Below are positions 11,970-37,101 of a DNA stretch of 64,000 bases, piece by piece. The notes under the pieces were generated by a model that made no database searches, was not told the DNA's origin, and saw only the letters and a list, made by a program, of their open reading frames with translations. Position 1 is the stretch's first letter. Each line of letters starts with the position of its first letter. A program made the translations under genes and the position numbers. The stretch comes from Sphingopyxis sp. (GTDB lineage Bacteria > Pseudomonadota > Alphaproteobacteria > Sphingomonadales > Sphingomonadaceae). The stretch lies in contig NZ_JAEULM010000021.1 of the NCBI RefSeq assembly GCF_016793825.1, positions 124,001 through 188,000 on the forward strand, written 5' to 3'.

Positions 11970-13982
11970 TCAGCGCGCCGGCACGTCCAGACCGAGCGCC
12001 TTCGCAACCCGTTCCCACGGCACCAGCTTGAAATTCTGATGCTCGGGGGGAGAGACGTTGCGACCGTCCTGCGCGACCATCAGACCGTGCGGGAAAGCGG
12101 GGCCCGCCGACAGGCTGGTAACGTCGAGACCATCGGTTTCGGATACGCCATCGATTCCCGCCGCCATGTCGGCACCGATCCGGAACGAGCCGACATAGGC
12201 ATTATCGCCCTCGCGGCGGAAGACGGCGTAGCTGTCGTTGCCCTGGCTGGACACGACCAGATAGCCCTTCCCCCCGTCCATGGCATAGAGGCCGATCCCC
12301 TCCATGTCGTCCTTGAGCGCGGGGTTGTCGGTGACTTTCGCGAGCATATTGCGCGCCGGCCCGCCGCGCGGCTCGGCGCCCTCGCGCCAGATGCCGACAT
12401 CTTCTTCGCCGGTGTAAAGCATCCCCGTCGCGTCGTCGGCGACGCAGCCTTCGACCTGGGTCGCGAACGGCAGGTCGCGCACAAGCTTCGCGCGCACCTT
12501 GCCCGCGGGGGTCGCAACCAGTTCCCATTGACGCATCTTGCCGTCGGTCTGATTGACGAAGACAAAGGTCTTTTTCGTCTTCGCGCTGCGATACATGCAC
12601 AGGCCATAGGGGTCCTTGAGCCCGGTGTCCTGAAGCCCGTCCGCGACGTCGGTCAACTTGCGCGTCGCGGGATCGAGCGCATAGATGGAGATGCCCTTCG
12701 TCGTCCGATTGCTGGCGGTGACGAGCGTGACGTCCCGGCCGCCAAGGCGGAAACCGTTCCGAAGATCGACATTGTTCATACGTCCATCGGGAAGGAACTG
12801 CAGCACCTTGCCGTCCAGATCATAGACATAGAGCCCCGACTGTTTCTGGGTTCCGATCACGACGCTCTGCGCTGGATCGACGGGGTTGATCCAGATCGCC
12901 GGATCGTCGGCCGCATCGCCGCCGGTCTCGACGGGGGTCGTCTCGACCGTCGGCCGCGCGAGCGGCATCGTTTCGGGCGTGGGCACGGTGGGTCGTTCGG
13001 AAAGCCCCGCTGCGGCGAGCAGCGCCGGCCAGCTCGCGATTTTCAGATTGGGGTCTTCGGGCGAGTTGTCGTCGTCGGCGACCACCACCACCGGACCGGC
13101 AATGGTGACGCTGCCCGCATCTTCGACTCTGTCGGCGCCCGCAGCGAGCGATACCGAACCCAGATAGGCATAGTCATCGGCGGGGTCATAAATGTTCAGC
13201 CGGTTCGCCTTGGCATCCGAAACCAGCAATCGCCCATCCGGCGCGATGCCGATACCCTTCGCCTCTTCGGTGATATGGCCGAGCCGGACGATGTCCACGA
13301 TCTCGGGCGTAATTTCGGCTTCCGGCTCGGCGGCGAAGCGCCACACGCCCACGGCTTCCTGCGAGAAGTAGACCGACCCGCGATCGTCGGCGGCGCAATA
13401 GCCGATTTCCGACCCCAACGACCAGCGCCGTGCAATTCGACCGCTAGTTGCGCCCGACGCGTCGGATGCGAGCCCCCATTGCTCGATCTCGCCCCGGTCA
13501 CCGACAAGGAAAAGATAGAGCGTTCCGTCGCGATGGCTGCGCGACAGGCAAAGCCCGGCGACCGTCATCTGAGGCTGGATTCCCGCGAGCGCGATTGGCA
13601 ATGGAACGCCCCCGGCGCCGACGCGAAACAGCTTTGGCGCATTCTCCTTGCCGTCGAGCGCGGCGAGCAGCGCTTCGCCGCCAGGCGCACTGTTCGCGCG
13701 CAGATCGAGCGCGCGGATATTGCCGACCTTGTGCGTCGCGACGCGCTGCCCGGCAAGATCGAAGACTTCGATCCCCGCCGATTCAGCACCAGCAAGAATC
13801 AGCATTCGCGACGCATCGGCGGGATCAGCGACCACGACGGCTCCGTCGGTTCCCGATCCCTGCGTCGCCTGTGTTTCGGCCGAAGCCGCCGCGACGGGGA
13901 CGGGCGCAGCCTGCTGCGCCATGGCATCGACCGCAGGAACGCCAGCCAGCACCGCTGCGATTGCAAAGAAACTCGTTTTCAC
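11970..13982 (-). CDS. Tandem beta-propeller phytase (3-phytase)
   Basis: 670 residues from a GTG at 13982 with GGGAGG five bases upstream. A signal peptide (MKTSFFAIAAVLAGVPAVDAMAQQ) directs export. The C-terminal half (about 345-665) is a full beta-propeller phytase domain: DDPAIWINPVDPAQSVVIGTQK, DGRMNNVDLRNGF and the acidic calcium and phosphate residues along VEGCVADDATGMLYTGEEDVGIW and KDDMEGIGLY. The N-terminal half (about 40-335) is a diverged second propeller. These calcium-dependent enzymes remove phosphates from phytate. Divergent from the inositol monophosphatase gene; start of the phytate/inositol island. Confidence 0.92.
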   Translation of the reverse strand: MKTSFFAIAAVLAGVPAVDAMAQQAAPVPVAAASAETQATQGSGTDGAVVVADPADASRMLILAGAESAGIEVFDLAGQRVATHKVGNIRALDLRANSAPGGEALLAALDGKENAPKLFRVGAGGVPLPIALAGIQPQMTVAGLCLSRSHRDGTLYLFLVGDRGEIEQWGLASDASGATSGRIARRWSLGSEIGYCAADDRGSVYFSQEAVGVWRFAAEPEAEITPEIVDIVRLGHITEEAKGIGIAPDGRLLVSDAKANRLNIYDPADDYAYLGSVSLAAGADRVEDAGSVTIAGPVVVVADDDNSPEDPNLKIASWPALLAAAGLSERPTVPTPETMPLARPTVETTPVETGGDAADDPAIWINPVDPAQSVVIGTQKQSGLYVYDLDGKVLQFLPDGRMNNVDLRNGFRLGGRDVTLVTASNRTTKGISIYALDPATRKLTDVADGLQDTGLKDPYGLCMYRSAKTKKTFVFVNQTDGKMRQWELVATPAGKVRAKLVRDLPFATQVEGCVADDATGMLYTGEEDVGIWREGAEPRGGPARNMLAKVTDNPALKDDMEGIGLYAMDGGKGYLVVSSQGNDSYAVFRREGDNAYVGSFRIGADMAAGIDGVSETDGLDVTSLSAGPAFPHGLMVAQDGRNVSPPEHQNFKLVPWERVAKALGLDVPAR

Positions 13983-14076
13983 TCAACCCTCCCTCTTCTA
14001 TTCGAAATCGCGCCCGGCGAAACGCCGGTCAAACAAGGCGGCGGTAACCGGAGTGACGGGACCGCAACATCATTTC

Positions 14077-14120
14077 AGAATATTTTTTCTATCTTTCTTA
14101 TAAAACAGAACGTATATTCA
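14077..14120. promoter_or_regulatory. Two GGAA-N6-TTCC-like sites between phytase and inositol monophosphatase
   Basis: AGAA-TATTTT-TTCT at 14077-14090 and AGAA-CGTATA-TTCA at 14107-14120 each match six of eight positions of the motif known for the RpiR-family regulator IolR of Sinorhizobium meliloti. Their starts are 30 bases apart. The second ends 4 bases before the monophosphatase ATG. Weaker as single sites than those at 26192 and 27154. Confidence 0.5.
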
Positions 14121-14124
14121 TTCC

Positions 14125-14916
14125 ATGACGATGTCACCCCTTATTTCCGCCATGATCGCCGCCGCTCACGCCGCCGGCGAAGGACTGATCACCGACCGGG
14201 AGCGCATCGCCACGCTCACGATCCACAGCAAGGCCGGCGCCGCCGACATGTTCACCGAGGCCGACCTGAAGGCCGAGGCCACCGTCCGTGAACGGTTGAT
14301 GACCCTTGCCCCCGACTACGGCTTCCTCGGTGAGGAAGGCGGGCTGACGCCCGGCCGCGACGCCGACCATGTGTGGGTGGTCGATCCCCTGGATGGTACA
14401 ACCAACTTCCTGACAGGATCCCCACTCTTCGCCGTCAATATCGCGCTTGCGCGACAGGGCGATGTCATCGCAGGCGTAACCTATGTTCCTGCGATGAATG
14501 AACTTTTCTGGGCCGAGACGGGCAACGGCGCCTGGCTTGGCGAGAAACGCATCAAAATTTCGCCGCGCGCGACGATCGAGGAATCGGTCCTAGGGGTCGG
14601 CATCCCCTTTGCGACCAAGCCTGACCATGAGCAATTTTATGCCGAGATGGAGCGGCTGACCCGGCGCGTCACGGGAATTCGCCGCCTGGGCGCGGGAGCA
14701 ATCGATATGGCTTGGGTCGCCTGCGGCCGGCACGATGCCTATTGGGAACAGAGCGTCAGCGCGTGGGACATGGCGGCCGGGGTCGCGATCGTTCGCGAGG
14801 CGGGGGGGATCGTCACCGACACGCGCGGCGACAAGCTCGACCTGACGAACGGCACGGTGCTGGCGTCGACGCCGGCGATTCATCAGGAGCTGTTGGCGGC
14901 GCTGGCACGGGTTTAG
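14125..14916 (+). CDS. suhB: Inositol monophosphatase family protein
   Basis: 263 residues. The three metal-binding motifs are complete: FLGEEGG (Glu70, Glu71), DPLDGTTN (87-94) and WDMAAG (214-219). The family hydrolyses myo-inositol monophosphates and related sugar phosphates with Mg2+. No signal peptide, so it acts in the cytoplasm. No Shine-Dalgarno sequence precedes the ATG at 14125 (a second in-frame ATG is at 14131). Divergent from the phytase, which fits a last dephosphorylation step after phytate breakdown. A housekeeping SuhB role is less likely in this setting. Confidence 0.88.
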   Translation: MTMSPLISAMIAAAHAAGEGLITDRERIATLTIHSKAGAADMFTEADLKAEATVRERLMTLAPDYGFLGEEGGLTPGRDADHVWVVDPLDGTTNFLTGSPLFAVNIALARQGDVIAGVTYVPAMNELFWAETGNGAWLGEKRIKISPRATIEESVLGVGIPFATKPDHEQFYAEMERLTRRVTGIRRLGAGAIDMAWVACGRHDAYWEQSVSAWDMAAGVAIVREAGGIVTDTRGDKLDLTNGTVLASTPAIHQELLAALARV

Positions 14917-14964
14917 CCAGGAAGGCAGGTCGGGATCTCGCCGGCGCATCAGGCTGATAGGGTG

Positions 14965-15018: not shown

Positions 15019-16134
15019 TCAGGGCTTCACCCAGCCGCCCTCCCGATGCGACCGTCTGATCGCGTCGGCGACCTTCTCGACTGCCAGCGCATCGGCGAAA
15101 CTCTTCGCCGCCGAAGGCAGGCCGGCCGCCGCTTCGATCGCGGCCTTCACCTCGATCGTCTTCAAGTCGTTGTAACCGATCTGATGTCCCGACGCGGGGC
15201 AAAAGGCGCCATAATCGCCGTGGTCGGGCCCAGCGCAGATCGTCGTGAATCCGTTGGTGCGGCCGGGGCCCGAACGGTAGAGTTTCAGTTCGTTGAACTG
15301 CTCCTGCGTGAAACCGATCGATCCCTTGGTACCGGTCACCTCGAAGGCGAGACCCATCTTGTGCCCGTTCGCGATCCAGCTCGCCGCCAGCGTACCCGTC
15401 GCACCCCCGGCGAATTCGACCACCGCGTCCATCTGATCGTCGACCGTCACGGCCCGGTCGTTGCCTCCTGCGTCGCGGCGCGTCGGATAAGCGGTATGGA
15501 GCCGCCCCGACACCGACGCGATATCGCCGACCAGATGCTGTGCCATCGCGATGATATGGCTCCCGATGTCGGCAAGCGCACCGCCTGCCTGATCGGGCTC
15601 GCAGCGCCAGTTGAACGGGGCGTCGGCCGATGCCATGAAATCCTCGGCATGGATGCCGCGAAAGGCGGTCACTTCGCCGATCTCACCGCTCGCGATCAGC
15701 TCGCGCGCAAGCACGATCATCGGGTTGTAGAGATAGGTAAAGCCGACTGCGGTCGGCAGTCCGGTCGCTGCGGCCGCGGCCGTCATCGCTTCCGATTCGG
15801 CAATTGTCGTCGCCAGCGGCTTTTCGCAATAGACCGCCTTGCCTGCCTCGAGCGCGGCGATCGCAATCGGCGCGTGGAGCAGGTTCGGGGTTGCGATCGC
15901 GACCATGTCGATGCCCGCGTCGGCGATGGTTTCGCGCCAGTCGCCGCTGGCGCGCGGAATGCCCAGTGAAGCCGCAGCGGCTGTCGCCGTCGGCAAGTCG
16001 CGATCGGCAAGGACGGTCACCCGCGGCGTGCGCGGCAGATCGAACGTCCGGTCCGCAGCGGCAAAGGCGAGCGCGTGGGCACGGCCCATGAAGCCGCTGC
16101 CGATCAGCGCAATATGAAGGGGCGCGCCGCTCAT
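15019..16134 (-). CDS. Gfo/Idh/MocA-family oxidoreductase (second inositol-type dehydrogenase)
   Basis: 371 residues. An N-terminal Rossmann fold (ALIGSGFMGRAHALAF) binds NAD(P); YCEKPLATT near residue 102 carries the EKP motif, and GGALADIGSHIIAMAQHLVGD holds the catalytic Asp/His pair. Longer than the IolG at 27270 and only distantly similar. In this island it could oxidise another inositol isomer such as scyllo- or chiro-inositol, or a sugar derivative; the substrate cannot be read from the sequence. Last gene of the leftward run that begins with the antiporter; its start overlaps the small gene before it. Confidence 0.82.
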   Translation of the reverse strand: MSGAPLHIALIGSGFMGRAHALAFAAADRTFDLPRTPRVTVLADRDLPTATAAAASLGIPRASGDWRETIADAGIDMVAIATPNLLHAPIAIAALEAGKAVYCEKPLATTIAESEAMTAAAAATGLPTAVGFTYLYNPMIVLARELIASGEIGEVTAFRGIHAEDFMASADAPFNWRCEPDQAGGALADIGSHIIAMAQHLVGDIASVSGRLHTAYPTRRDAGGNDRAVTVDDQMDAVVEFAGGATGTLAASWIANGHKMGLAFEVTGTKGSIGFTQEQFNELKLYRSGPGRTNGFTTICAGPDHGDYGAFCPASGHQIGYNDLKTIEVKAAIEAAAGLPSAAKSFADALAVEKVADAIRRSHREGGWVKP

Positions 16135-16333: not shown

Positions 16334-17740
16334 CTATTCGCCTCCATAATAGCTGCCGCCGCGCGCCACCCGCTCGCGCCGTTCGAGTTCGTCAGGATCG
16401 ATAACCGCGCGCCAGCTCTGCCGCCCGTTGACCAGATCGGCGGCGCGCAGCACGACAGGCTTGCCCGAACCCGAGGCGCCGATCACATCGCGCACGCTCA
16501 GCGCGACGCGCGGTTCGGGATCGAAGCTGAATTCGAGGAGGCCGAAGTTGGCGCTACGCACGAACGGCTGGCGTAGCCGCACTTCGGGATGCTGATCGAC
16601 GAACTTGGGCGCCAGATATTGCGCAAGCCCCGAACTGACGAGATCGTAGAAATCATAGCCGCCCTTGTCCGACCAGGGCACGCAATTGACCTCGCCCTGG
16701 TGGACATCGCCCGAGATGCCAAAGCAGCCGCCGATCCGTTCGTCGCGAATGAAATCGAGGATTTCGTTCCGTTCGTGCAGATAGGAGGCCCAGCTGTCGC
16801 CGTCCTTTTCGGCGAGCGACCAGCCGGTGCCCGAAGCGAGAATCTTGAACACCGCCTTCGAGGCCTTGAGTTCGCGCTTCAGCCAGGCCTTCTGTCCCAC
16901 ACCGAGCATGGTCTTGGTCGGGCTGTCGGGGTCCGACGGCGCATCGCGATAATAGCGACCATCGAGCATGAAGATGTCGATGGGGCCAAAGCTGTGGCGA
17001 AAGAAGATTCCCGGCGTATCGGGCAGGCCGGCGGCCGGATTGGCCCACCAGCGATCGAACAGGCGGCGCGTCATGTCCTTCACACCGTTGTGGCGATCCG
17101 AATTATTGTAGCCGAAATCATGGTCGTCCCAGACCGCAAGCTGGGGCACCGAACGGAGGAACGGAACGAGCGCCGCGACATTGCGCTGCCGCGAATAGAG
17201 CGTCGAATAGGCTGTCTCGCTGTCGCTGTCGGCGTAGATATTGTCGCCAAGCCACAGGAAGAGGTCGGGTTCCATCGCCGCGATTGCTTCGAACACCGGT
17301 TGTTCGGGATAGAGCTGGACGCGCGCGCACGAACCGAAGGCGATCCGGATCGGACGCGGCCGATCGGGCGCGGTACGGGTGCGATAGGGGAGCGGCTGGT
17401 GCCGGTCGTCGATCCCGTCGGTCTTGACCCGGTAAAAATAGTCGGTGTCGGGTTTGAGCCCGGTCACCTCGACCGTGGTGCAAAGATCATTCTCCTGCGT
17501 TGCGGCGGCGCTCGCGGTCGTCCTGGCGTCGCTGAAGTCTCGCTGCGTCGCATATTCGACGGCGACACCGAAAGCGCCGCTGGCGCGCGACCAGACGCGG
17601 AAACTGCCGGGCGTCGTCGCGCCGATCATCGGGCCATCGAGGAGGCGCGGATAGCCGAGCGTCGCCGCGTATAGCCGGCGTGGAAGCGCGGCCAGGAAGG
17701 CGAGAGCGGTGCCCCCACGCAGAAGGTTTCGGCGGTACAT
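16334..17740 (-). CDS. phoD: PhoD-like alkaline phosphatase/phosphodiesterase, Tat-exported
   Basis: 468 residues from ATG 17740 (GGGGGAG upstream). The N-terminus YRRNLLRGG followed by a hydrophobic stretch is a twin-arginine signal. An N-terminal fibronectin-like domain precedes the metallophosphatase core: FGSCARV (metal Cys), FLWLGDNIYAD, VWDDHDFG with NNSD, and SGDVHQGE. PhoD enzymes need Ca2+ and Fe3+ and remove phosphate from mono- and diesters in the periplasm. It starts 10 bases after the organophosphate antiporter stop and lies inside the inositol island, so it may act on inositol phosphates or phosphodiesters. Confidence 0.88.
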   Translation of the reverse strand: MYRRNLLRGGTALAFLAALPRRLYAATLGYPRLLDGPMIGATTPGSFRVWSRASGAFGVAVEYATQRDFSDARTTASAAATQENDLCTTVEVTGLKPDTDYFYRVKTDGIDDRHQPLPYRTRTAPDRPRPIRIAFGSCARVQLYPEQPVFEAIAAMEPDLFLWLGDNIYADSDSETAYSTLYSRQRNVAALVPFLRSVPQLAVWDDHDFGYNNSDRHNGVKDMTRRLFDRWWANPAAGLPDTPGIFFRHSFGPIDIFMLDGRYYRDAPSDPDSPTKTMLGVGQKAWLKRELKASKAVFKILASGTGWSLAEKDGDSWASYLHERNEILDFIRDERIGGCFGISGDVHQGEVNCVPWSDKGGYDFYDLVSSGLAQYLAPKFVDQHPEVRLRQPFVRSANFGLLEFSFDPEPRVALSVRDVIGASGSGKPVVLRAADLVNGRQSWRAVIDPDELERRERVARGGSYYGGE

Positions 17741-17750
17741 ATACTCCCCC

Positions 17751-19085
17751 TCAGTCGCGCAGCTTTGTGTTCCAGAGCATCGTCGCAAGCAACGTGGCGA
17801 GGACCGAACTCCCGATCCAAAACCCGATCACCGGACCGAAATCATAGACATTCACGCCGTTCGCAATGTGCATGTTGGCGTCAATGAGCGCGCCCGACAC
17901 CTGCTCTTGGATCGCCGCACCCAGATAACTGAACACGCCGACCAGCCCGAGGGCTGCGCCCGCGACGCGCTTCGGACAGATGTCGATCGCGAACAATCCG
18001 CCGAGCGACGTGACGAGCCCCGTCATGCCGAGCCCGAACAGGATCACCGCGACCAGAACCACCGCGGGATTGTTCGGGCCGAAGAAGAGCAGCAACAGAC
18101 CGACGAGTTCAAGGACGCCGAACAGCAGATTGACCGGCGGCCGGCGCGCGCCGAAGAATTTGTCCGACACAAAACCGAAGGCAACGGCGCCCGCCACCCC
18201 CGCGAGCGTGCTCGCGGTCAGCATCGCCCCCGCCTCGGCCAGCGAATAGCCCCGCGCCTCCTGCAGATAGAGGATACCCCAACTGTTGATCGCATAGCGC
18301 GTTACGTAATTGGCCGCGCTCGCCAGCGCGAGAATCCACACCGCCGGAATCGCAAGGATCGACAATTGGGTCGCGAAGACCCCGCGTTCGGGAACATTAC
18401 CGGCCGGCGGCGCATAATGATCGTTCCGCCAGTCGGCGACGGTCGGCAGGCCGAGCGAACGCGGGCGGTCGGCCATCGCATAATAGGCGGCAACCGCCGC
18501 TACCGTGGCTGCGATACCGGGACCCCAGAACCCCCAGCGCCAGCCGCCGACCGCGACAAGCGCGGACACGACCGCAAAGGTCAGCCCTTCGCCGATCGAA
18601 TGCGCCGTCGACCATATGCCATAATAGCGTCCGCGCTCACGGTTCGAGAACCAACTGGCCAGCGCGACGACGCAAGAAGGCGCGCCATAGCTCTGGAACC
18701 AGCCGTTGAGCGCCCACAACATCACCGTGACCCAGAAGAGCGTCGAAAAGCCCATCGCGATATTGCACAGCGCCGACAGCAGCAGGCCGAATGCGAAGAG
18801 CCGTTTCACATTGCTGTGATCGGCCACGAAGCCATTGATCAGCTTGCCCGCCGCATAGGTATAGAACAGCGCCGAGCCGATCATGCCGAGTTCGAGCGGG
18901 GTGAATATCCCCTGGTCGATCAGCGGCTTCTTCACGATGTTGATCGCCAGACGGCAGGTATAGCTGATCGCGTAGGCGAGCGTGATCGTCAGGATGATCC
19001 GCATCCGATAGCTCTTGAAGGCACCGTCGACGCTGTCGTCGGCCCTAACCGGCAAGTCCGGCCCCGTTGCGAAATATCTCAGCAT
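17751..19085 (-). CDS. Organophosphate:phosphate antiporter (GlpT/UhpT family MFS)
   Basis: 444 residues from ATG 19085 (GAGAGG upstream), 12 membrane helices. The first helix has YTCRLAINIVKKPL and a later one NYVTRYAINSW; with this start the arginines are Arg45 and Arg263, at the places where GlpT uses Arg45 and Arg269 to bind phosphate. The segments YAAGKLINGFVADHSN and NGWFQSYGAPSCV are also OPA-family signatures. Members swap an organic phosphate for inorganic phosphate across the inner membrane. As the only inner-membrane carrier of the island, it may take up inositol phosphate. Substrate is inference. Confidence 0.87.
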   Translation of the reverse strand: MLRYFATGPDLPVRADDSVDGAFKSYRMRIILTITLAYAISYTCRLAINIVKKPLIDQGIFTPLELGMIGSALFYTYAAGKLINGFVADHSNVKRLFAFGLLLSALCNIAMGFSTLFWVTVMLWALNGWFQSYGAPSCVVALASWFSNRERGRYYGIWSTAHSIGEGLTFAVVSALVAVGGWRWGFWGPGIAATVAAVAAYYAMADRPRSLGLPTVADWRNDHYAPPAGNVPERGVFATQLSILAIPAVWILALASAANYVTRYAINSWGILYLQEARGYSLAEAGAMLTASTLAGVAGAVAFGFVSDKFFGARRPPVNLLFGVLELVGLLLLFFGPNNPAVVLVAVILFGLGMTGLVTSLGGLFAIDICPKRVAGAALGLVGVFSYLGAAIQEQVSGALIDANMHIANGVNVYDFGPVIGFWIGSSVLATLLATMLWNTKLRD

Positions 19086-19162
19086 CGCCTCTCTCCCGCA
19101 CCGGCGCCCCTCTGTCGTTTCGGGCGTCCGGTGCATGATGCTATTTCATTTTACATACAAAT

Positions 19163-26164: not shown

Positions 26165-26191
26165 CAGTTTCAGACCATCTCTCCTTGGCCT

Positions 26192-26263
26192 GTAACACAT
26201 ATTCCAACTTTAGAATCTTTGCAACAGATGTTTCATGTTGTCGGAATTTGGAATTCTATTTCG
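26192..26263. promoter_or_regulatory. Array of three 29-bp-phased GGAA-N6-TTCC-like sites before iolC
   Basis: GTAA-CACATA-TTCC (26192), GCAA-CAGATG-TTTC (26221) and GGAA-TTCTAT-TTCG (26250) match seven, six and seven of eight motif positions. Their starts are exactly 29 bases apart. The array covers the iolC promoter region and runs into the end of the rpiR gene. The motif is the one published for IolR of Sinorhizobium meliloti; phasing is my observation. Confidence 0.75.
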
Positions 26264-27153: not shown

Positions 27154-27254
27154 GGAATATCTGTTCAAAACTTGTAACGCAACTGTCGCCCTGTGCCATT
27201 TTCCACGCTATAGAATAATTGTTCCATCAGTATGTGAGGTGGAATTTGGTTTCA
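27154..27254. promoter_or_regulatory. 29-bp-phased GGAA-N6-TTCC-like sites between rpiR and iolG
   Basis: GGAA-TATCTG-TTCA (27154), AGAA-TAATTG-TTCC (27212) and GGAA-TTTGGT-TTCA (27241) each match seven of eight positions. The intervals are 58 and 29 bases, i.e. two and one units of 29. The last ends 15 bases before the iolG ATG. The region would control both rpiR (left) and iolG (right). Confidence 0.8.
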
Positions 27255-28678: not shown

Positions 28679-31219
28679 TCAGAATTTGAACTGGACCCCC
28701 GTCTTGACCGAATAGCCGTAACGTTCGACCTCGTCGGTCCGCGACGAAATGCCCTGGAAGACACGATAGGGTTCATCGTTGAGGTTCGATCCTTCGAGGA
28801 AGATCGTCACATTTTTCACGATGTCGTACCCGATGCGCGCGTCCCACTGATTGAAAGCGCCAACATAGAGGTCGGTATCGGTATCTTCGCCCGGCTCAAG
28901 CAGATAGGCCGAACGGTAGGTGTAGGCGATCCGTGCCGAGAGGCCGCCCTTTTCATAGGAAAGGAAGGCCGACGCCACGCGGTTCGACTGGCTTGCCAGC
29001 GGCAACCGCTCGTCACCGCGACCCGGAATGCCCTTCGCCCGCGATTTCACGAACGTGATGCTGCCGCCGACGCTGAAGCCGTCAAGCGGCGACGGCAGGA
29101 AGCTCAGTTCGGTTTGTGCGTTGATTTCGATGCCCTTGACGAACGCACTGTTGGCGTTGACCGGCATCGTCACCTGCGCATCGACCAGCGCCTGCCCCGC
29201 GAACGTGCCGCTCTGATCGATCGTCGCCGAGTAGATCGGATTTTCGATCGTCTTGTAGAAGCCGGCAATGCTGACGATACCCTTGCGACCGATGTAGAAT
29301 TCGCCAGCAATGTCATAGTTGGTCGAGGTGAGCGGTTTCAGATCGGGGTTACCCCTCGTGACTTCGTTGTCCGCCGTGTTCACGACCGTCGTCGGCGCAA
29401 GTTGTTCATAGTTGGGCCGGCCTATCGCGCGCGTCACCGCAGCGCGCAGAACAAGTGACGGTGTCGCGTTCCAGCGCAGGTTCAGGCCGGGGAACCAGTC
29501 CGAATAGCTTTGCGACCCAAAGCTGTCGTACGCCTTGTCGAGATCGGCGATAGTCGTGGTGTCGAGAATGTCCTTGGCCGCATAATTGCTCTTCGTCTTT
29601 TCCATGCGTACCCCGGGGATCGCAGTGAACTCCCCGAACTTCAACGTCGCCATCGCATAGGCAGCGAAGATCTTTTCGCGGATCAGATAGTCGGCCGCCA
29701 GGCTGTCGCCGACCGTCCCCTCCTCGTCCAGTTCGAACCCGGTCAGATTGGACTGGAAGAAGCCGTCGGCCGCCGGACGGCTGATCGTCGCGCCGAGCGG
29801 GTAGCGGCCCTTGAAGATGCTATCGATCGGGGCACCTGCAACCTGATCGAGCGTGAAATCGTCATCATAGTCGCCATAGATCACCGATTCGGCGTCATTC
29901 GTCTTGCGCCGCCGCGTGTATTTGGCACCGACCTGGATCGAGCTGTCGTCGCCGATGGCGATCGGCGTGCGGAAATCGGTGCGCGCCTGATAGAGATCCT
30001 CGCGCGCGCGGCGATGTTCATAACTTGTTTCGTCGAATTTATACTTGGTCGCATCGAACGCCGCCGCGCTCGACTGATACACCGGGATCGACCCCGACAG
30101 ATCATAGGACCCGGTAATATTCTTTGCGGCAAAGATGATTTCGTCGCGATGCGGGTCACGCTTGTTAGCCTGGGTATAGCTACCCTCGACACGCAGCCAG
30201 CTCGGCCCGAGATCGAATTCGCCGCCAAACGACGAGGTGAAGGTGTCGGAATCTTCTTCGCGCGAGCGCAGGGCGCGCTTTGCCTTGGCGGCGGCGAAAT
30301 CGCCGCTGGTCGCGGTCTGGTTCGTGATTTCCTCGTCGTCCAGGTCGACCTGGAATCCGGGGCGCGATTCCTTGTCCTTATATTTGGAATAGAGGAAGCG
30401 CGCGAAAACCTTCGCATCATCGGTCGGGCGCCAGTCGAAATTGGCGACCGCGCCATAGCGCTGACGGCGGGTGTGATAGTCGCGGAGCGTCTGGCGCAGC
30501 GGCACGAATTCGCCGTTCACCTCCTCCCATTTGCCGCCCGACTGGACGTTCTGCGCCTCGAACTCGCGGTTCGAATAGTTGAGTGCCAACACGACCCCGA
30601 ATTGCCGGTCGGGACCAAAGCGCGATCCGATCGACGCATCGAACTCATAGGGATGCTTGCCGTTCAGGTCGTACTTGCCATAGGCGGCGCGCAGGCTGCC
30701 AAACGTCCCCGGTCGGTCGAAGGCCGACACCGTTTCGATGTTGGCGGCGCCCGCGATCGCATTGGCATCCATGTCGGGGGTCAGGGTTTTCGACACCGTC
30801 ACCGCGCCGATCAGCGCCGAAGGGATATCGTCGAGTTTCACCTGGCGCGAATCGGGTTCGGGAGCGGCCGCGGTCTGACCGTTGAGGGTAACGTTGAGCA
30901 GGTCCGGCGACACCCCGCGAACCGTCAGGTAGCGGCCTTCGCCCTGATCATTGGCGACACTGAGACCCGGCAGGCGCCGCAGCGTTTCGGCGACATTCTG
31001 GTCGGGCAGGCGCCCGACGTCATCGGCGCGCACTTCATCGACCTGCGTATCGGTGTTGCGCTTCGTTTCAAGGGCGGCGCGATCCGCGGCGCGGCGGCCG
31101 CTGACGACAATCGTGTCGTCCTGCCCCGCCGTGGTCGATGCATCCTGCGCCCAGGCACCCGTCGCCGGGACGGCCAGACATGTCGTTAGCAAAAGCGCCC
31201 GTGCGAACCGCCGTGTCAT
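28679..31219 (-). CDS. TonB-dependent receptor, probable phytate or inositol-phosphate receptor
   Basis: 846 residues from ATG 31219 (signal peptide MTRRFARALLLTTCLAVPATGAWAQ). A TonB-box-like segment (DDTIVVSGRR), a plug domain (LPDQNVAETLRRLPGLSV, RYLTVRGVSPDLLNVTLNGQ) and a 22-strand barrel ending in VQFKF are visible. Such receptors import large or scarce solutes over the outer membrane with TonB energy. Between iolG and the two-component operon, with a CTGACA tandem box about 150 bases upstream and a weak RpiR-type site, so phytate or its breakdown products are the likely cargo. Substrate is inference. Confidence 0.9.
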   Translation of the reverse strand: MTRRFARALLLTTCLAVPATGAWAQDASTTAGQDDTIVVSGRRAADRAALETKRNTDTQVDEVRADDVGRLPDQNVAETLRRLPGLSVANDQGEGRYLTVRGVSPDLLNVTLNGQTAAAPEPDSRQVKLDDIPSALIGAVTVSKTLTPDMDANAIAGAANIETVSAFDRPGTFGSLRAAYGKYDLNGKHPYEFDASIGSRFGPDRQFGVVLALNYSNREFEAQNVQSGGKWEEVNGEFVPLRQTLRDYHTRRQRYGAVANFDWRPTDDAKVFARFLYSKYKDKESRPGFQVDLDDEEITNQTATSGDFAAAKAKRALRSREEDSDTFTSSFGGEFDLGPSWLRVEGSYTQANKRDPHRDEIIFAAKNITGSYDLSGSIPVYQSSAAAFDATKYKFDETSYEHRRAREDLYQARTDFRTPIAIGDDSSIQVGAKYTRRRKTNDAESVIYGDYDDDFTLDQVAGAPIDSIFKGRYPLGATISRPAADGFFQSNLTGFELDEEGTVGDSLAADYLIREKIFAAYAMATLKFGEFTAIPGVRMEKTKSNYAAKDILDTTTIADLDKAYDSFGSQSYSDWFPGLNLRWNATPSLVLRAAVTRAIGRPNYEQLAPTTVVNTADNEVTRGNPDLKPLTSTNYDIAGEFYIGRKGIVSIAGFYKTIENPIYSATIDQSGTFAGQALVDAQVTMPVNANSAFVKGIEINAQTELSFLPSPLDGFSVGGSITFVKSRAKGIPGRGDERLPLASQSNRVASAFLSYEKGGLSARIAYTYRSAYLLEPGEDTDTDLYVGAFNQWDARIGYDIVKNVTIFLEGSNLNDEPYRVFQGISSRTDEVERYGYSVKTGVQFKF

Positions 31220-31306
31220 TGTATTGCCTCTCCTCCCCGGCACGACTCCCTGTCGCGCTCGTTCGGACAGCATAATGACATAATTATTCTATATTGCAAG
31301 TGAAAT

Positions 31307-31367: not shown

Positions 31368-31385
31368 CTGACACGAAGCTGACAG
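31368..31385 (+). promoter_or_regulatory. Tandem CTGACA box upstream of the first TonB receptor
   Basis: CTGACAC-GAAG-CTGACAG: two seven-base units with 11-base periodicity, the layout of OmpR/PhoB-family sites. It sits in the gap just past the kinase stop, upstream of the leftward receptor gene. It is oriented opposite to that gene. Confidence 0.6.
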
Positions 31386-31390: not shown

Positions 31391-32728
31391 TCAGTCGGAT
31401 AGCGTCCAGTGCACTCGGACCTCGAGTCCCCCGAGCGGCGACCGCGCAAGCCCCAGCTCGCCGCGCGTCGCTTCTGCGAGTTCACGGGCGATCGCCAGAC
31501 CAAGTCCATGGCCTTCGTTCGCCGAATCAAGGCGGGCACCGCGCAGAATCGCTTCGTCGCGTTGCGCCGTATCGAGCCCCGGGCCATCGTCGCCGACGAG
31601 CAGGATGCGCACGCCACCCACGGTCTCCACCGAAACGCGCACGAGGCGGCGAGCATGCCGCGCGGCGTTTTCAAGCAGGGGACCAAGCAGCTCGGCGGCA
31701 TCGTCGCTGGCGAGCGGCAGCGTGGTGTCTTCATCGCAGGCCAGCGAAAAAGCGACGCGCTCGCCAGCCTCGGTCTGTTCGATGACCGCGACGAGGCGTT
31801 CGATCAGCGGCAACGCCAGCGTGCTTCGTCCTTCGTGGACAAGGCTGATCCGCGTCCGCGCCAGTTCGCCGTCGATAGCGGCGCGCACTGCCGCAATCGA
31901 CGAGTCGAGACCGTCGGCAATCGGCACCGCCCCGCTTTCGCGCGCGCGCGCGCTCTGAACAGCCAGCGCGGCGAGGGGCGTCTTGAGTCCGTGGGCCAGA
32001 TCGGCGGCGCGGCGCCTTGCCCGCATCAGATCGGCCTCACGCGCATCGGCGAGCGCGTTTATCGATTCAGTCAGCGGCGCCAGCTCGCGGGGATAAGTGC
32101 CGCCAAGACGGGCCGAAGCGTCGCGGCGGAGTCGCTCGACCTCCTGCCCGACACCGCGCAGGGGACGCAGCCCGAGACCGACCTGCGCCCAGGCCGCGAG
32201 CGCGAGGACGATCCAGAGGAGCGTCAGGAACAGCACCATTTCGCGCCCGAATTCGCGTTGCGCGGGTGCGAGCTTGGCAAGGTCATAGCCCAACTGGACG
32301 ATAACCGCGGGCTCCTGCGGCTGAAGACGGATCGCCCTCTCCATCAACAACAGCCGCTGTCCGAAAGGACCAGCCGTGCGGCGGATATGCCAGGCATCGG
32401 CCGGCGCCGTCGCTGTACGCGGCAGGCGGCTGTCCCACAGCGAAATCGATCGGATCGTCCCCTTGGCGGTCGAGGCCTGCCAATAAAGCCCGCCGGCGGG
32501 AACCGCGAAGCGCGGGTCGGCGGGTTCGGACCCGGCAACCGGCATACCCCCCGACAGGCGAAGGTCGGCAAGCAGCGGCCGAACCTGGACCAGAAGTTCG
32601 TCCTCAACGCGCCGCTCGACATGTCCATTGAACAGCCAGGTCATCGCGAACCAGGCGACGATCAGCGCCAACGCGATCGCAACCCCGGCTCCCGCGATCA
32701 GCCGAAGCCGGAGCGATCCGCTCTTCAT
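31391..32728 (-). CDS. Sensor histidine kinase (PhoQ/QseC-like)
   Basis: 445 residues. Two membrane helices (about 10-33 and 165-184) enclose a periplasmic sensor of 130 residues. A HAMP-like region follows, then the H-box RRRAADLAHGLKTPLAAL (His246) and the ATPase domain with N-box LLGPLLENAARHA and G-boxes GDDGPGLD and GHGLGLAI. It overlaps the response regulator by ATGA, so they form one two-component system. Location between two TonB receptors and beside a phytase suggests that it senses phytate, calcium, iron or phosphate; the signal is unknown. Confidence 0.92.
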   Translation of the reverse strand: MKSGSLRLRLIAGAGVAIALALIVAWFAMTWLFNGHVERRVEDELLVQVRPLLADLRLSGGMPVAGSEPADPRFAVPAGGLYWQASTAKGTIRSISLWDSRLPRTATAPADAWHIRRTAGPFGQRLLLMERAIRLQPQEPAVIVQLGYDLAKLAPAQREFGREMVLFLTLLWIVLALAAWAQVGLGLRPLRGVGQEVERLRRDASARLGGTYPRELAPLTESINALADAREADLMRARRRAADLAHGLKTPLAALAVQSARARESGAVPIADGLDSSIAAVRAAIDGELARTRISLVHEGRSTLALPLIERLVAVIEQTEAGERVAFSLACDEDTTLPLASDDAAELLGPLLENAARHARRLVRVSVETVGGVRILLVGDDGPGLDTAQRDEAILRGARLDSANEGHGLGLAIARELAEATRGELGLARSPLGGLEVRVHWTLSD

Positions 32729-33390
32729 GCGGCGGCCACTGGCAAAAGATAGCCGAAGCCGCGCCGGGTCGTGATCGTATCAGCGCCCAGCTTGCGACGC
32801 AGCCGCGCGATCAACGCCTCGATCGCATTGGCGTTCTCGGCATCGGCGTCGCCATAGAGGTGGTCTGACAATTCGGTCGCCGGCACCGCTCGACCGGCAT
32901 GATGTGCGAGATAATCGAGGAGCCGGTATTCGAGGGGCGACAGCTTGACGAACGCGCCGTCGAGCGTCGCTGTCATGCGATGCGTGTCGATCCGCAGTGG
33001 CCCTGCTTCGAGCGTCGGGCTCGACCGCCCCGCCGCCCGCCGGATCAGGCCGCGAACACGCGCCACCAGTTCCTCCATCGCCCAGGGCTTGGCCATATAG
33101 TCGTCGGCACCGGCCTCGATTCCGGCGACCTTGTCGGTCCATTCGCCGCGGGCCGACAGAATCAGGACGGGAAAGCTGCGCCCCGCATCGCGCCAACGCT
33201 TGACGACCGACAGGCCATCGAGCCGCGGCAGGCCGAGGTCGACGATCGCGACGTCATAGTCCTCGACATCGCCGCTGAACCAGGCCTGCTGTCCGTCTCC
33301 GGCAAGGTCGACGACGAAGCCCGCCGCCGTCATCCCGCGAACGAGCTCGGCAGCAACGACCGGATCATCCTCGACCACCAATGCGCGCAT
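32725..33390 (-). CDS. OmpR/PhoB-family response regulator
   Basis: 221 residues from ATG 33390; a TTG one codon earlier is possible but the ATG overlaps the PepSY stop as TGATG. The receiver domain has the acidic pair VEDDP, phospho-acceptor Asp51 (IVDLGLP) and Lys in YMAKPW. The C-terminal winged helix ends IEALIARLRRKLGADTITTRRGFGYLL. It should bind tandem direct repeats, and three CTGACA-N5-CTGACA boxes lie in the neighbourhood. Partner of the kinase that follows. Confidence 0.94.
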   Translation of the reverse strand: MRALVVEDDPVVAAELVRGMTAAGFVVDLAGDGQQAWFSGDVEDYDVAIVDLGLPRLDGLSVVKRWRDAGRSFPVLILSARGEWTDKVAGIEAGADDYMAKPWAMEELVARVRGLIRRAAGRSSPTLEAGPLRIDTHRMTATLDGAFVKLSPLEYRLLDYLAHHAGRAVPATELSDHLYGDADAENANAIEALIARLRRKLGADTITTRRGFGYLLPVAAA

Positions 33391-33698
33391 CAATCATCCT
33401 CGATCTTGATCACCCGGCCGGTCTTGGCGTCGATTTCGACCTCGCGCACCCTGCCGCCGGCGGTCAGGATTTTCACCTCATATTTGAACCCGAAGGATTC
33501 GCGTTCCAGCTTGACCTTCAGAACGTCACCGGGAACGCGCTCGGTTGCGATCGCGAGGACGCGCGCAATCGGCAGAATTTCTCCCCGCGCCAGAGCCGCG
33601 CTGGCGGCAAGCTGGTCGGCCTTGTCATCCTTCGCAAGCGAAAGGGCGGGGGTGGCGATGGCGGCCATGGCGGCCAGCAGGATCAGGGTCTTTTTCAT
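33390..33698 (-). CDS. PepSY-domain periplasmic protein
   Basis: 102 residues with a signal peptide (MKKTLILLAAMAAIATPALSLA). The rest is one PepSY domain: LARGEILPIARVLAIATERVPGDVLKVKLERESFGFKYEVKILTAGGRVREVEIDAKTGRVIKIEDD. PepSY proteins often precede two-component genes and may modulate sensing in the periplasm. First gene of a PepSY-regulator-kinase operon, divergent from the histidine-acid phytase. Confidence 0.9.
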   Translation of the reverse strand: MKKTLILLAAMAAIATPALSLAKDDKADQLAASAALARGEILPIARVLAIATERVPGDVLKVKLERESFGFKYEVKILTAGGRVREVEIDAKTGRVIKIEDD

Positions 33699-33722: not shown

Positions 33723-33740
33723 CTGACATTATGCTGACAT
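33723..33740 (+). promoter_or_regulatory. Tandem CTGACA box between PepSY operon and histidine-acid phytase
   Basis: CTGACAT-TATG-CTGACAT, a perfect seven-base direct repeat with 11-base period, like a Pho box (CTGTCAT repeats). It lies 25 bases upstream of the PepSY ATG and about 95 bases before the phytase start, so it could serve either. Confidence 0.68.
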
Positions 33741-33747: not shown

Positions 33748-33819
33748 GGAATATTTCTTCGGAGAACCGCATTGATGAAATATATTTTCTGATTTATGTA
33801 ATGTCGATAAATTTGTTCC
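33748..33819. promoter_or_regulatory. Three 29-bp-phased GGAA-N6-TTCC-like sites before the histidine-acid phytase
   Basis: GGAA-TATTTC-TTCG (33748), GAAA-TATATT-TTCT (33777) and GATA-AATTTG-TTCC (33806) match seven, six and six of eight positions, at exact 29-base intervals. They lie between the CTGACA box and the GTG start at 33835. The same spacing occurs before iolC and iolG. Confidence 0.6.
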
Positions 33820-33834: not shown

Positions 33835-35067
33835 GTGAAGCGAATGTTCCTTTTGTCGACCGCCCTGCTGGCGGCCTGTGCCGCGCCCGGGCCCGGCACC
33901 GACGCATCGACCCCGGCGCCCGAAGAATCGCTGAAGCTGGAAAAGGTCGTGATGCTGATGCGCCACGGCATCCGTCCGCCGACGAAGGCTGCGGTGGTTC
34001 CGCCAGGCTATTCGACCGAGCGGTGGCCCGACTGGCCGGTCGACTTCGGGCTGCTCACTCCGCGCGGCGCGGCGGGCGTCAAGCTTCTCGGCGAAAGCGA
34101 TCGCGCCTATTTCGGCGCGCGCGGCCTGTTCGCCAGCGGCTGCCCGGCGCCCGGCACGGTCGTCCTGAAGGCTAGCTACAAGGAACGTACGATCAACACG
34201 GCGCAAAGCTGGGCGGCTGGTTTCATGCCCGGCTGCGCGGCCGACGTCACCCACCCGGCGGGTGCCGACGACGATGCGATCTTTCATGGGCTCGACGGCG
34301 GTCCGGTCTCGTTCGACGGCAAACGCGCCTTCAACGCAGCGCTCGCTCAGGCGCCCGAAGGCGGCCTCGCCGCCGAAACCGAACGCCATCGCGGCGAACT
34401 GACGCTGCTGGCAAGAGTATTGAACTGCGCGCTGCCGACGTGCCCTCTCATCGCCCAGCCGAGCCGGCTGGTCGCCCAGCCGCACGACCGCCCCGATCTC
34501 GAAGGCCCACTCGACGTCGGGTCGACCGCCAGCCAGACGCTGCTCCTCGAATATCTCGAAGGCAAACCGATGGCCGAGGTCGGATGGGGCCGCGTCAGCC
34601 GCGCGGAGATCGAACAGCTCCTGCAGTTCCATCCGCTGAAATTCCGCTACGCGAACCGTCCGGGCTATATTGCCGCCGCCGCCGCTGCGCCTATCGTCAG
34701 CGAAATCGTCTCCGCGCTTGGTGGGAAAAGCGCGGCCCGCCTGACCTTGCTCGCGGGCCACGACACGAATGTCGCCGACCTCGGAGGATTCTTCGATCTG
34801 CATTGGCAGGTGCCAAGCTATCCGGCGGACGAGGTCCCACCCGGCAGCGCGCTGGGTTTCGAGCTTGTCAGCAATAGCAAAGGCGACCGCTATGTCCGCG
34901 CCTTTTATCGTTCGCAGACGATGGACCAACTCCGCGCGCTCGAACCGCTGGGCGCCGGCGACTCGCTGTTCCGGCGCTACCTTCCGATTCCGGGATGCGG
35001 AAATTCGGTTGCGGCGACTGCCTGCGGTTGGACCGAATTCGCGCGGCTCGCCGCCCCGCGAGGCTGA
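33835..35067 (+). CDS. Histidine-acid phosphatase, phytase-like lipoprotein
   Basis: 410 residues from a GTG at 33835 with GGGAGAG upstream (ATG 33844 is an alternative). The N-terminus LSTALLAACAAP has a lipobox with Cys15, so it is anchored in a membrane, probably the outer. The active site RHGIRPP is at 43-49 and the proton donor HDTN at 309-312; HDTN is the form in AppA-type phytases. It would form a phospho-histidine and remove phosphate from phytate or sugar phosphates at acid pH. A glucose-1-phosphatase role is the main alternative. Confidence 0.9.
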   Translation: MKRMFLLSTALLAACAAPGPGTDASTPAPEESLKLEKVVMLMRHGIRPPTKAAVVPPGYSTERWPDWPVDFGLLTPRGAAGVKLLGESDRAYFGARGLFASGCPAPGTVVLKASYKERTINTAQSWAAGFMPGCAADVTHPAGADDDAIFHGLDGGPVSFDGKRAFNAALAQAPEGGLAAETERHRGELTLLARVLNCALPTCPLIAQPSRLVAQPHDRPDLEGPLDVGSTASQTLLLEYLEGKPMAEVGWGRVSRAEIEQLLQFHPLKFRYANRPGYIAAAAAAPIVSEIVSALGGKSAARLTLLAGHDTNVADLGGFFDLHWQVPSYPADEVPPGSALGFELVSNSKGDRYVRAFYRSQTMDQLRALEPLGAGDSLFRRYLPIPGCGNSVAATACGWTEFARLAAPRG

Positions 35068-35076
35068 GCCCGCGGC

Positions 35077-37101
35077 CTATCCGCCGAAACTGCGCTGGAC
35101 GGTCAACCCAACATAGCGGCCGCTGCGCAAAACCCGCAGTTCGCGATAGCGCAAGCCGCTATCGCCGCGAACGCCGGCATAAATGTCGCGTGTCCGCGTC
35201 GCAGGGCTGTCGGTCAGATTCTTGCCGAACAGACGGATCGTCCAGCGCGTGTCCGGATGATATTCGGCGAACAGATCGAGCCGTCCGCCCAGACTGTCAT
35301 CCTCGACCTCCTCGACCTTGAAGCTCGTCTCGGTGCGGGCAAAGGCATAGCTTCCGCCCCAGCGCATCTTCCACACCGGAATATCGTGGGTCAGCGAGAT
35401 CCGGGCCTCGACCGGCATGTCCCCCGAGATGCGGCGGCGCTCGCCGGTTGACGGATCGGTGGCCCGACTGCGCCGCGCCAGCAGGTCGGCGGTCACAACG
35501 ACACCCTTCGCGCCGAGACCATCGAGCGGCCATTTCAGCGATGCCTCGACGACGTCGCGACGCGCGTCGCCGATGTTGCCGACCGCATCATAGACGACCC
35601 CATCCGCAATCAGGGGAAGCTGGTCGACAAGGTCCGATATCCATTCGCGCCGGACCGAGGCGGTGAACGAGCCCGCGCCGAACCGCCGTTCATAGGCAAA
35701 TTCAAGACGCCAGAGGCTGTCCGGTTCCAGGTCGGCATTCCCCGCACTGACCGTTCCGTTGGTGAGCGAGGCAGCGCCGACGAAGTCACCGAAATCAAGT
35801 TGCCCGACCTCGCGCTCGAACAACAGGCGCAGCGTCTGATTCGCGGTCGGCGTCCAGCTCAATCGAGCGCGCGGCTTCCAGAAAGCGAGCGTCTTGACGA
35901 GGTCGATATCGCCCGTCTGCGACAGGCGCGACATTTCATAACGCACGCCGATTTCGGCGGTCACATGGGGACCGAGCGGATGGCTGCCCGTCGCAAACAG
36001 TTCGGCGCGGCGCTCCGACACCCGGACATCGGCTTGCGGGAGGATGACCGGCAGGCCGTCCTCGGTGAGCGCATTTCGGCTGTCGAGCGTGTTGAGCGCC
36101 CCTTCGGCGCCAACCTCGATCGTCGTGCCGCCGCGATGATGACGCAGGGCCGCGCGCACGATGGCCTCGCTGGCGTGCGAACGCTCGTCCGAGATGCTGC
36201 TGCCCGACGCCTCCTTCTCGCGATCGATGCCGACCGTCGCGACCGACCGATAGCTTCCTACCACGTCCAGATCCGTGGCCGCGCCCAGCGCCCGCTCATA
36301 GCGCAGCCCGCCTTCATAGGTCCGTGCGTGCTCGCGCTCGCTGCCGGTGATCGCCTCGCTCGCCGGGAAATAGATGGCATAGGCGATATCGGCGAATTTC
36401 CGCTTGTCCTGCACCAGCCCGTTCAGTCGCAGCGTCCCGCCAAGAACGGGCTGCCGGTAGGCGAGCGTCGCCTGCACGACGTCGGCGCCCTCTGGCTGCG
36501 CATAGTCCACCAGCCGCACCGGCGCTCCGTCCGGGGCAAACCGATTGCGGATACCGAAGCCATGCTCATCGTCGATCTCGCGGTACACGGTCCCGAACAC
36601 GTCGATCACGTGGTCATGGCCATGGCTCGCCTGCACCGAAAAGCGCGGCGCTCGGCGGCCATGCCGGTAGAGCGCCTGTTCGGCCTCGATCCGGCCATTG
36701 ATTGCGCCGGCCTTGACCAGCACAACGTTGGCGAGCAGCGCATAACCCTGCATGTCATAGCCGGCCGACCCGGCGCGGATCAGCTCGATCCGCTCCACCC
36801 GGGCCGCAGGCAGGCGTTTCAATATGGCCTCGAGCGTGTCGGTCTTTCCGGCCGGACGCTGGCCGTCGATCAGGACATTGCCCGCCGCGCCCGAATAGCC
36901 GCGCACGTCGGCATCGCCCTCTACAAGCGCAAACCCCGGCAGCAGCGCCACCATTTCATAGGCGTTCGAAGGCTGGGTCCGGTCGAAGAAGTCCTTGTCA
37001 TAGACCGGACCGCCAACCGCAGACGCATCCTGACCGACCGCCGCCGTGCCCGTGCAGAAGCCTGCCCACACCAGCAGCGCTATGCGAATACCATGAGCCA
37101 T
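35077..37101 (-). CDS. TonB-dependent receptor with reduced plug
   Basis: 674 residues with a signal peptide ending VGQDAS. A short plug (FDRTQPSNAYEMVALLPGFAL, VLIDGQRPAGKTDTLEAILKRLPAARVERIELIRAGSAGYDMQGYALLANVVLV) leads into a long beta-barrel ending VGLTVQRSFGG. No classical TonB box is clear. Similar receptors occur beside PepSY two-component sets in sphingomonads. It is convergent with the phytase and has a CTGACA tandem box 88 bases upstream of its start. Cargo unknown, probably linked to the phytate island. Confidence 0.85.
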   Translation of the reverse strand: MAHGIRIALLVWAGFCTGTAAVGQDASAVGGPVYDKDFFDRTQPSNAYEMVALLPGFALVEGDADVRGYSGAAGNVLIDGQRPAGKTDTLEAILKRLPAARVERIELIRAGSAGYDMQGYALLANVVLVKAGAINGRIEAEQALYRHGRRAPRFSVQASHGHDHVIDVFGTVYREIDDEHGFGIRNRFAPDGAPVRLVDYAQPEGADVVQATLAYRQPVLGGTLRLNGLVQDKRKFADIAYAIYFPASEAITGSEREHARTYEGGLRYERALGAATDLDVVGSYRSVATVGIDREKEASGSSISDERSHASEAIVRAALRHHRGGTTIEVGAEGALNTLDSRNALTEDGLPVILPQADVRVSERRAELFATGSHPLGPHVTAEIGVRYEMSRLSQTGDIDLVKTLAFWKPRARLSWTPTANQTLRLLFEREVGQLDFGDFVGAASLTNGTVSAGNADLEPDSLWRLEFAYERRFGAGSFTASVRREWISDLVDQLPLIADGVVYDAVGNIGDARRDVVEASLKWPLDGLGAKGVVVTADLLARRSRATDPSTGERRRISGDMPVEARISLTHDIPVWKMRWGGSYAFARTETSFKVEEVEDDSLGGRLDLFAEYHPDTRWTIRLFGKNLTDSPATRTRDIYAGVRGDSGLRYRELRVLRSGRYVGLTVQRSFGG

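Follow-up and report, generated by a model that had tools for sequence, protein, structure and literature searches.

Organic phosphorus in soil is described as being predominantly phytate, and phytate beads placed there were dominated by phytate-degrading Sphingomonas and Caulobacter (PMC5017799; for this and all other articles cited here, our statements cover the part of the text examined). Parts of a route from phytate to central metabolism have been described. In Citromicrobium (PMC3400609) and Flavobacterium (PMC8115612), a TonB receptor lies beside a phytase, with phytate as its proposed substrate. In Caulobacter crescentus, IolR represses the iol promoters, and the palindrome GGAA-N6-TTCC occurs there in two copies, of which one raised iolC expression when mutated and the other had no effect (PMC2597717). 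A survey of inositol clusters mentions phytase twice (PMC9430895), the examined text of a review names no inositol-phosphate importer (PMC12482443), and a 2026 study of swine isolates reports that the surroundings of phytase genes are not conserved from genus to genus (PMC12838507). Here we describe a phytate uptake-to-catabolism island of 18 genes at positions 11970–37101 of a 64,000-nucleotide stretch (the window) of contig NZ_JAEULM010000021.1, which belongs to the 3.86-Mb draft genome of Sphingopyxis sp. An earlier note on this DNA had stated that, to its author's knowledge, such clustering was not described as a system. Among the articles listed by our full-text literature search, with subscription journals mostly outside its coverage, none described the whole unit; parts of it are in print (PMC3400609, PMC8115612, PMC2597717).

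With a probability of roughly 70%, we read the island as a locus for phytate utilisation, in which this compound supplies carbon as well as phosphorus. That it forms a conserved unit is well supported: the island is more than a chance assembly because its core set recurs in other genera and because all seven genomes of the order with a close antiporter have iolD nearby. It unites a receptor, degrading enzymes, an inner-membrane carrier, a pathway and a regulator, the components of a TonB-based nutrient utilisation locus. The joint uptake-to-catabolism unit proposed in the earlier note thus gains support from synteny across genera and from operator-like sites common to phytase and iol genes.

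Pfam and NCBIfam profile searches of the window placed every family previously named for this region within the island, together with a PepSY gene that had been overlooked. The two phytases do differ in fold. The tandem two-domain beta-propeller phytase (BPP; 11970–13982, minus strand) matches PF02333 in two stretches with 415 bits, over the cut-off, and has 3amr and 1poo as its closest solved chains. The histidine-acid, AppA-like phytase (HAP; 33835–35067, plus strand) passes the cut-off of PF00328 with 74.5 bits and contains RHGIRPP and HD, in line with RHGxRxP and HD, which we take to be the signature motifs of histidine-acid phytases; its 222.1 bits against the AppA model NF007552 lie under the cut-off of 585, making it a relative and not an AppA equivalog. 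The inositol monophosphatase (IMPase; 14125–14916, plus) matches PF00459 with 226 bits, over the cut-off, as well as SuhB/IMPase chains, and scores below the cut-offs of the NCBIfam HisN and inositol-1-monophosphatase models. Its translation contains DPLDGT and WDMAAG, which we read as the inositol monophosphatase motifs DPxDGT and WDxAAG. The phosphatase at 16334–17788 (minus; PF09423, 102 bits) is PhoD-like and scores well under the PhoD cut-off of NCBIfam (55 versus 1000).

All six enzymes assigned to inositol catabolism exceed curated NCBIfam cut-offs: the inositol 2-dehydrogenase IolG (27270–28253, plus; TIGR04380, 408.7 versus 355 bits) and, on the minus strand, the kinase–aldolase fusion IolC-DUF2090 (24224–26200; NF047869, 728.9 versus 600), IolD (22392–24227; TIGR04377, 931.8 versus 715), IolE (21502–22395; TIGR04379, 355.4 versus 290), IolB (20711–21502; TIGR04378, 352.9 versus 205) and the malonate-semialdehyde dehydrogenase MmsA, or IolA (19193–20701; TIGR01722, 643.9 versus 448.5). 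The RpiR-family regulator (26256–27131, minus) is of the IolR type and 67% identical to the RpiR protein beside the iol genes of Caulobacter BK020. Neither iolI nor iolH was among the families matched inside the island, and no genome-wide search for them was made. From RpiR to a second dehydrogenase, nine co-directional genes overlap or are separated by at most 56 bases, except for 199 bases before that dehydrogenase. Divergent pairs are formed by BPP and IMPase, by RpiR and IolG, and by the PepSY–response regulator–kinase genes and HAP. By eye, export signals are present in BPP (Sec-type), the PhoD-like protein (Tat-like), both TonB receptors and the PepSY protein, and HAP has a lipobox; IMPase has no signal peptide, consistent with a cytosolic location.

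A conserved neighbourhood in related genomes, on which the earlier note had let its reading depend, was found across genera and two classes. Named genomes were scanned with IolD, and the best 80 loci (more exist) were used with flanks of 10 kb. We also analyzed 246 genomes of the window's order and 385 of its class, each sample including the window's own genome, with iolD taken at E ≤ 1e-150 in the order sample and the antiporter at E ≤ 1e-100 in the class sample; gene order was read by tblastn and open reading frame (ORF) calls. To the extent that the flanks show it, the same island is present in Sphingopyxis panaciterrulae, S. granuli and Sphingomonas horti (HAP is absent from the flank) and, over a longer stretch, in G007, a genome of the window's genus. 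A phytase/iol/RpiR core in different order was detected in Caulobacter AP07, Root343 and UNC358MFTsu5.1, in Pseudoxanthomonas koreensis and in metagenome-assembled genomes (MAGs) of Luteimonas and Rhodanobacter, with the Rhodanobacter contig ending before any two-component system. The three Caulobacter strains also carry the antiporter, IMPase, receptor 2 and two-component genes; PhoD was not found in them.

Among the best 80 loci, whose co-occurrence counts are not corrected for phylogeny, ten have a phytase, nine of these with the antiporter, while the tenth (L028) stops at a contig end; phytases of both folds are present in nine. The antiporter occurs without phytase in two loci, L037, which starts at IolG, and L022, a true exception within the flank. 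In the order sample, iolD was identified in 11 of 246 genomes and a close antiporter (at least 62% identity, a line set after the table was seen) in seven, where iolD always lies no more than 15 kb away on that contig; three further antiporter matches (36–45%; G069, G033 and G063) belong to genomes without iolD. PF02333 is present in 84 of the 246 genomes. Of the 11 genomes with iolD, 10 carry a tandem BPP no more than 15 kb from that gene, the eleventh contig being 7.8 kb long. Tandem phytases were counted in 12 genomes, leaving out G189 (one 316-bit match, a 689-codon frame and no iolD); because of that omission, the stricter count is iolD in 10 of 13 genomes with a tandem-length phytase. 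The class sample contained iolD in 56 of 385 genomes and the antiporter in two (the window's own and G428), in each case at most 15 kb from iolD.

Operator-like sites connect the phytase and iol genes. In the window, two IolR-type palindromes, GAATATTTTTTC (14078–14089) and GAACGTATATTC (14108–14119), occupy the divergent BPP/IMPase promoter region (span 14078–14119), three lie between rpiR and iolG (27155–27166, 27213–27224 and 27242–27253) and one precedes the HAP gene (33749–33760). Window-wide counts alone were insufficient, because the 30 copies of GGAA-N6-TTCC with one mismatch (20.3 expected) were reached by 4 of 100 shuffles; the cross-locus comparison carried the point. Here, GAA-N6-TTC occurred 46 times in rpiR/iolG regions, covering 24 of 24 (dinucleotide shuffles: mean 1.75, maximum 6), 25 times in phytase/receptor/IMPase regions, covering 19 of 35 (mean 1.98, maximum 7), and 12 times in other island regions, covering 11 of 68 (mean 3.2, maximum 9). 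The 40 convergent regions had no site, and altered spacings or triplets gave at most nine matches in any region group. The 24 rpiR/iolG regions derive from 23 of 28 island loci, with the region of L040 dropping out where ORF calls overlapped. The counts exclude eight iol loci that lack a phytase; five of these (L012, L014, L016, L019 and L020) have GAA-N6-TTC before rpiR or iolG and three (L015, L017 and L034) do not. A site stands before 15 of the 17 BPP genes in islands versus 4 of 20 BPP genes elsewhere (Fisher p = 4.7e-5, with related loci not independent), and two of the latter four are the tandem phytases of G016 and G030. By analogy with C. crescentus IolR, the RpiR-family protein may bind these shared sites and thereby link phytase and iol genes.

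A different motif marks the receptor half of the island. It comprises TonB-dependent receptor 1 (28679–31273, minus; TIGR01782, 588.8 bits, over the cut-off), TonB-dependent receptor 2 (35077–37101, minus; PF00593, 55.4 bits, over the cut-off) and, on the minus strand, a two-component operon. The first gene of the latter encodes the PepSY-domain protein (33390–33698; PF03413, 50.2 bits) and overlaps by four bases the gene of an OmpR-family response regulator (32725–33393); the sensor histidine kinase lies at 31391–32728, both proteins being assigned by Pfam and NCBIfam matches. A PhoQ-like identity of the kinase was set aside, with model matches far below the cut-off. The direct repeat TGTCAG-N5-TGTCAG stands upstream of receptor 1 (31368–31384, minus) and of the two-component operon (33723–33739, minus), and a one-mismatch TGTCA-N6-TGTCA copy stands upstream of receptor 2 (37190–37205, plus). 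The whole 3.86-Mb genome holds four copies of the full repeat and none of its backwards control; the remaining two, on contig C18, precede a truncated receptor-2 relative and a Porin_5 gene, in opposite orientation to the gene. At this second site (C18:954–4400; L130), the truncated relative, 135 residues long and 62.6% identical, with the repeat upstream, is adjoined by an IS110-like transposase (family by eye), followed by the Porin_5 gene with its own repeat. Across loci, TGTCA-N6-TGTCA with one mismatch precedes 10 of 12 PepSY/response regulator genes, all six receptor-1 genes behind the kinase and three of five other receptor-2 genes, that is, 19 of 23 two-component/receptor regions versus 2 of 196 other regions. 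These repeats might instead be Pho boxes read by PhoB, with the receptor half answering phosphate starvation and the local response regulator having other targets. The repeat spacing is what we take to be that of a Pho box, and PhoB control becomes possible because elsewhere in this genome the looser TGTCA-N6-TGTCA also adjoins genes of the PstS and PhoU_div families. However, those two copies have T or C after the first TGTCA where the four outer-membrane and two-component sites have G, and the high frequency of the repeat before PepSY/response regulator genes likewise counts against PhoB. We therefore regard PhoB control as a tentative alternative to control by the PepSY two-component system.

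A dedicated inositol carrier had been listed as missing from the island. We revise this point: the GlpT-like organophosphate:phosphate antiporter (OPA; 17751–19136, minus; likely start 19085) and the IMPase probably fill its place together, through import of inositol monophosphate. The antiporter is of the GlpT/UhpT/UhpC kind and passes no specific NCBIfam cut-off. Its best sequence match in the PDB is GlpT (1pw4, 169 bits), which is also the top fold match of its AlphaFold model (mean pLDDT 86.5; TM 0.80–0.82). An alignment of 17 island proteins, with a distant eighteenth (L118) set aside, contains 173 invariant residues, including R45, K81, H162 and R263, aligned with R45, K80, H165 and R269, presumably the basic pocket residues of GlpT. 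These data show an organophosphate carrier under strong constraint; neither conservation nor fold gives its substrate. The best model match was UhpC (260.6 versus 564 bits), a protein that has a UhpB-type kinase as its partner; since no such kinase was seen in the island, a role as a UhpC-like sensor was set aside.

Among the best 80 iol loci, with thresholds of at least 40% identity for the antiporter and at least 45% for IMPase, both proteins were present in 11 and both absent in 69, so that the close IMPase accompanied the antiporter in 11 of 11 loci and was found in 0 of 69 others. Caulobacter BK020 and C. hibisci, whose iol core is very similar and which lack both the antiporter and a close IMPase, have a periplasmic binding protein, an ABC ATPase and a permease where other loci have the phytase; a third phytase-less Caulobacter, RYN_457 (MAG), has neither the ABC importer nor the antiporter and IMPase. 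Five iolD genomes of group f5 (G061, G088, G055, G079 and G091) have genes for a Na+ symporter and for a metallophosphatase downstream of their iol genes, in G061 and G088 without antiporter and IMPase. In G039 (f8; locus L115), phytase and iol genes occur without the antiporter and with a metallophosphatase and an amino-acid-permease family gene. Genes of this permease family were also observed near the iol clusters L015 and L017, and at all three loci they possibly represent another type of inositol carrier. Each iol type thus seems to bring its own inner-membrane route, with the antiporter route being the one that includes IMPase, and on this pattern we base the proposal of inositol monophosphate import. 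As a separate observation, in locus L117 of G069 a TonB receptor gene is immediately followed by the gene of a 45%-identical antiporter; its 14.9-kb contig shows no iol match, and this is perhaps another organophosphate locus. In the window's own genome, an IbpA-like query protein has a best match of 26% identity, and the island contains no ABC inositol importer IbpA-IatA-IatP; the Na+ symporter query returned no match, an empty answer that alone shows little, and Sugar_tr matches span about half of the model, other carrier families not having been searched.

Phosphorus scavenging could come first, with all phosphates stripped in the periplasm, free inositol entering through an unlinked carrier and the antiporter serving other organophosphates. 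The position of PhoD in the same gene run fits this view, as do G061, G088 and G039, in which phytase and iol genes go with another carrier gene and a metallophosphatase and lack antiporter and IMPase, and a C. crescentus PhoB regulon that includes a phytase and TonB receptors (PMC11208175). The strict pairing of close IMPase and antiporter in the 80 loci speaks against it, as do the lack of a good inositol carrier in the own genome by the three queries made and the IolR-type sites before most island phytases, and we consider it unlikely. Still less probable, and to us hardly credible, is that the locus in truth serves glycerophosphoinositol or phosphatidylinositol derived from other cells, with phytate only a side substrate. 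In favour of this, no solved structure is closer to the antiporter than GlpT, and PhoD enzymes can act on phosphodiesters; on the other side stand the tandem phytases near iolD, the phytases of both folds in nine loci and the absence of any Pfam match to phospholipase or glycerophosphodiesterase families among the 18 genes. Inherited linkage without joint function, suggested by the nearly unchanged order within Sphingopyxis-like genomes, is highly improbable in view of the different order that the core genes have in Caulobacter, Lysobacteraceae and group f5, the several gains and losses on the IolD tree and the operators common to island genes.

That quick IolD tree, with seven short loci left out of the trait counts, requires seven changes for phytase and six for the antiporter. 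A starred set of 25 rows joins island-bearing Gammaproteobacteria to Alphaproteobacteria; two genomes of the window's family, G152 and G177, group with Lysobacteraceae (96, starred), and the island-bearing Root343 groups with Caulobacter BK020 and C. hibisci (SH-aLRT 94, not starred). The antiporter tree did not resolve its deeper forks. The pattern fits transfer of the module and is no proof of it. The Rhodanobacter MAG locus L036 and the Phenylobacterium MAG locus L037 encode identical IolD and antiporter proteins; since one of the two labels is probably a binning error, we treated them as one observation.

Several results weigh against a phytate locus of the proposed kind. The antiporter substrate could be another phosphate ester. 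Five of the 69 antiporter-less loci (L032, L038, L044, L046 and L048) have a weaker IMPase relative (33–39% identity), and G055, G079 and G091 carry the Na+ symporter in addition to antiporter and IMPase, so that the antiporter need not be the sole route there. In Pseudoxanthomonas yeongjuensis (L022), the antiporter occurs with IMPase and PhoD but without any phytase within 10 kb, and the Sphingomonadales loci L012, L019 and L034 have iol genes and no phytase within the flank. Conversely, G016, G030 and G189 of the order sample have a tandem-length phytase without iolD, and HAP, present in 13 of 246 genomes, is near the island in only two. The IolD tree offers too few independent contrasts between antiporter and phytase (four pairs, median p = 0.25). 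The window contains no exact GGAA-N6-TTCC, against an expectation of 0.92, the relaxed pattern GAA-N6-TTC was chosen after the window's sites had been seen, and flanking regions are somewhat enriched too (11 sites in 8 of 52; shuffle mean 3.2, maximum 9). Seven receptor-1 relatives located beside BPP, instead of the kinase, lack the TGTCA repeat.

Among the remaining features, the second Gfo/Idh/MocA dehydrogenase (15019–16134, minus) scores 113 against the IolG cut-off of 355 and perhaps acts on another inositol isomer. Seven loci (L013, L021, L022, L028, L037, L039 and L040) have a tandem pair of IolG-like genes upstream of RpiR; the window has a single IolG beside RpiR and its other Gfo/Idh gene elsewhere in the island. 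Upstream of the island and unrelated to it lies an FHIPEP (FlhA-type) gene (4608–6731), and adjoining receptor 2 is a gene for a 583-residue protein with weak TPR and lipoprotein-family matches (37282–39033).

In our model, the TonB receptors would carry phytate or its metal complex across the outer membrane, and BPP, the lipoprotein-type HAP and the PhoD-like enzyme, placed in the periplasm by eye, would strip phosphates there. Inositol monophosphate would then enter through the GlpT-like antiporter against phosphate, the cytosolic IMPase would release inositol, and IolG, IolE, IolD, IolB, IolC-J and MmsA, as their families predict, would convert it to central metabolites. RpiR/IolR would repress the iol, phytase and IMPase promoters through GAA-N6-TTC until inositol catabolites appear, and the PepSY two-component system may control itself and the receptors through TGTCAG-N5-TGTCAG. 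We see an even chance that this constitutes an undescribed form of phytate catabolism, in which inositol monophosphate is imported by a dedicated GlpT-like antiporter, the final dephosphorylation is cytosolic and the phytases are under IolR, and in which a phytase/receptor/antiporter/IMPase module plugs onto different iol cores where an ABC importer would otherwise stand and has been exchanged between Alpha- and Gammaproteobacteria. If true, phytate would serve as a source of carbon that yields phosphate as well. The island provides a named candidate inositol-phosphate importer, a putative regulatory connection that ties phytase directly to carbon catabolism through shared sites, and a gene set open to deletion testing.

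Compared with known systems, the island resembles the C. crescentus module in its idhA and iolCDEBA genes, its RpiR-type IolR and, in the relaxed form GAA-N6-TTC, perhaps its palindromic GGAA-N6-TTCC motif; there, however, free inositol is imported by IbpA-IatA-IatP, and phytase, receptor, antiporter and IMPase are not described as members in the text examined (PMC2597717). The Citromicrobium and Flavobacterium examples differ in that inositol catabolism, antiporter, IMPase and IolR control are unmentioned in the examined portions (PMC3400609, PMC8115612). The C. crescentus PhoB regulon likewise combines a phytase with several TonB receptors but is phosphate-driven, whereas most island phytase genes carry IolR-type sites, which point to carbon-driven control (PMC11208175). 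In contrast to the swine isolates, the island shows a conserved phytase neighbourhood (PMC12838507). Its antiporter shares with GlpT, UhpT and SLC37 the fold and the conserved basic pocket residues and differs from them in its strongly conserved residue set and its tie to iol genes and IMPase. The CUT loci of Xanthomonas and similar nutrient loci are built on a TonB receptor that is joined by enzymes, a regulator and a carrier in the inner membrane. The island is alike in overall architecture, with a phosphorylated cyclitol as its proposed substrate and an organophosphate antiporter as its carrier.

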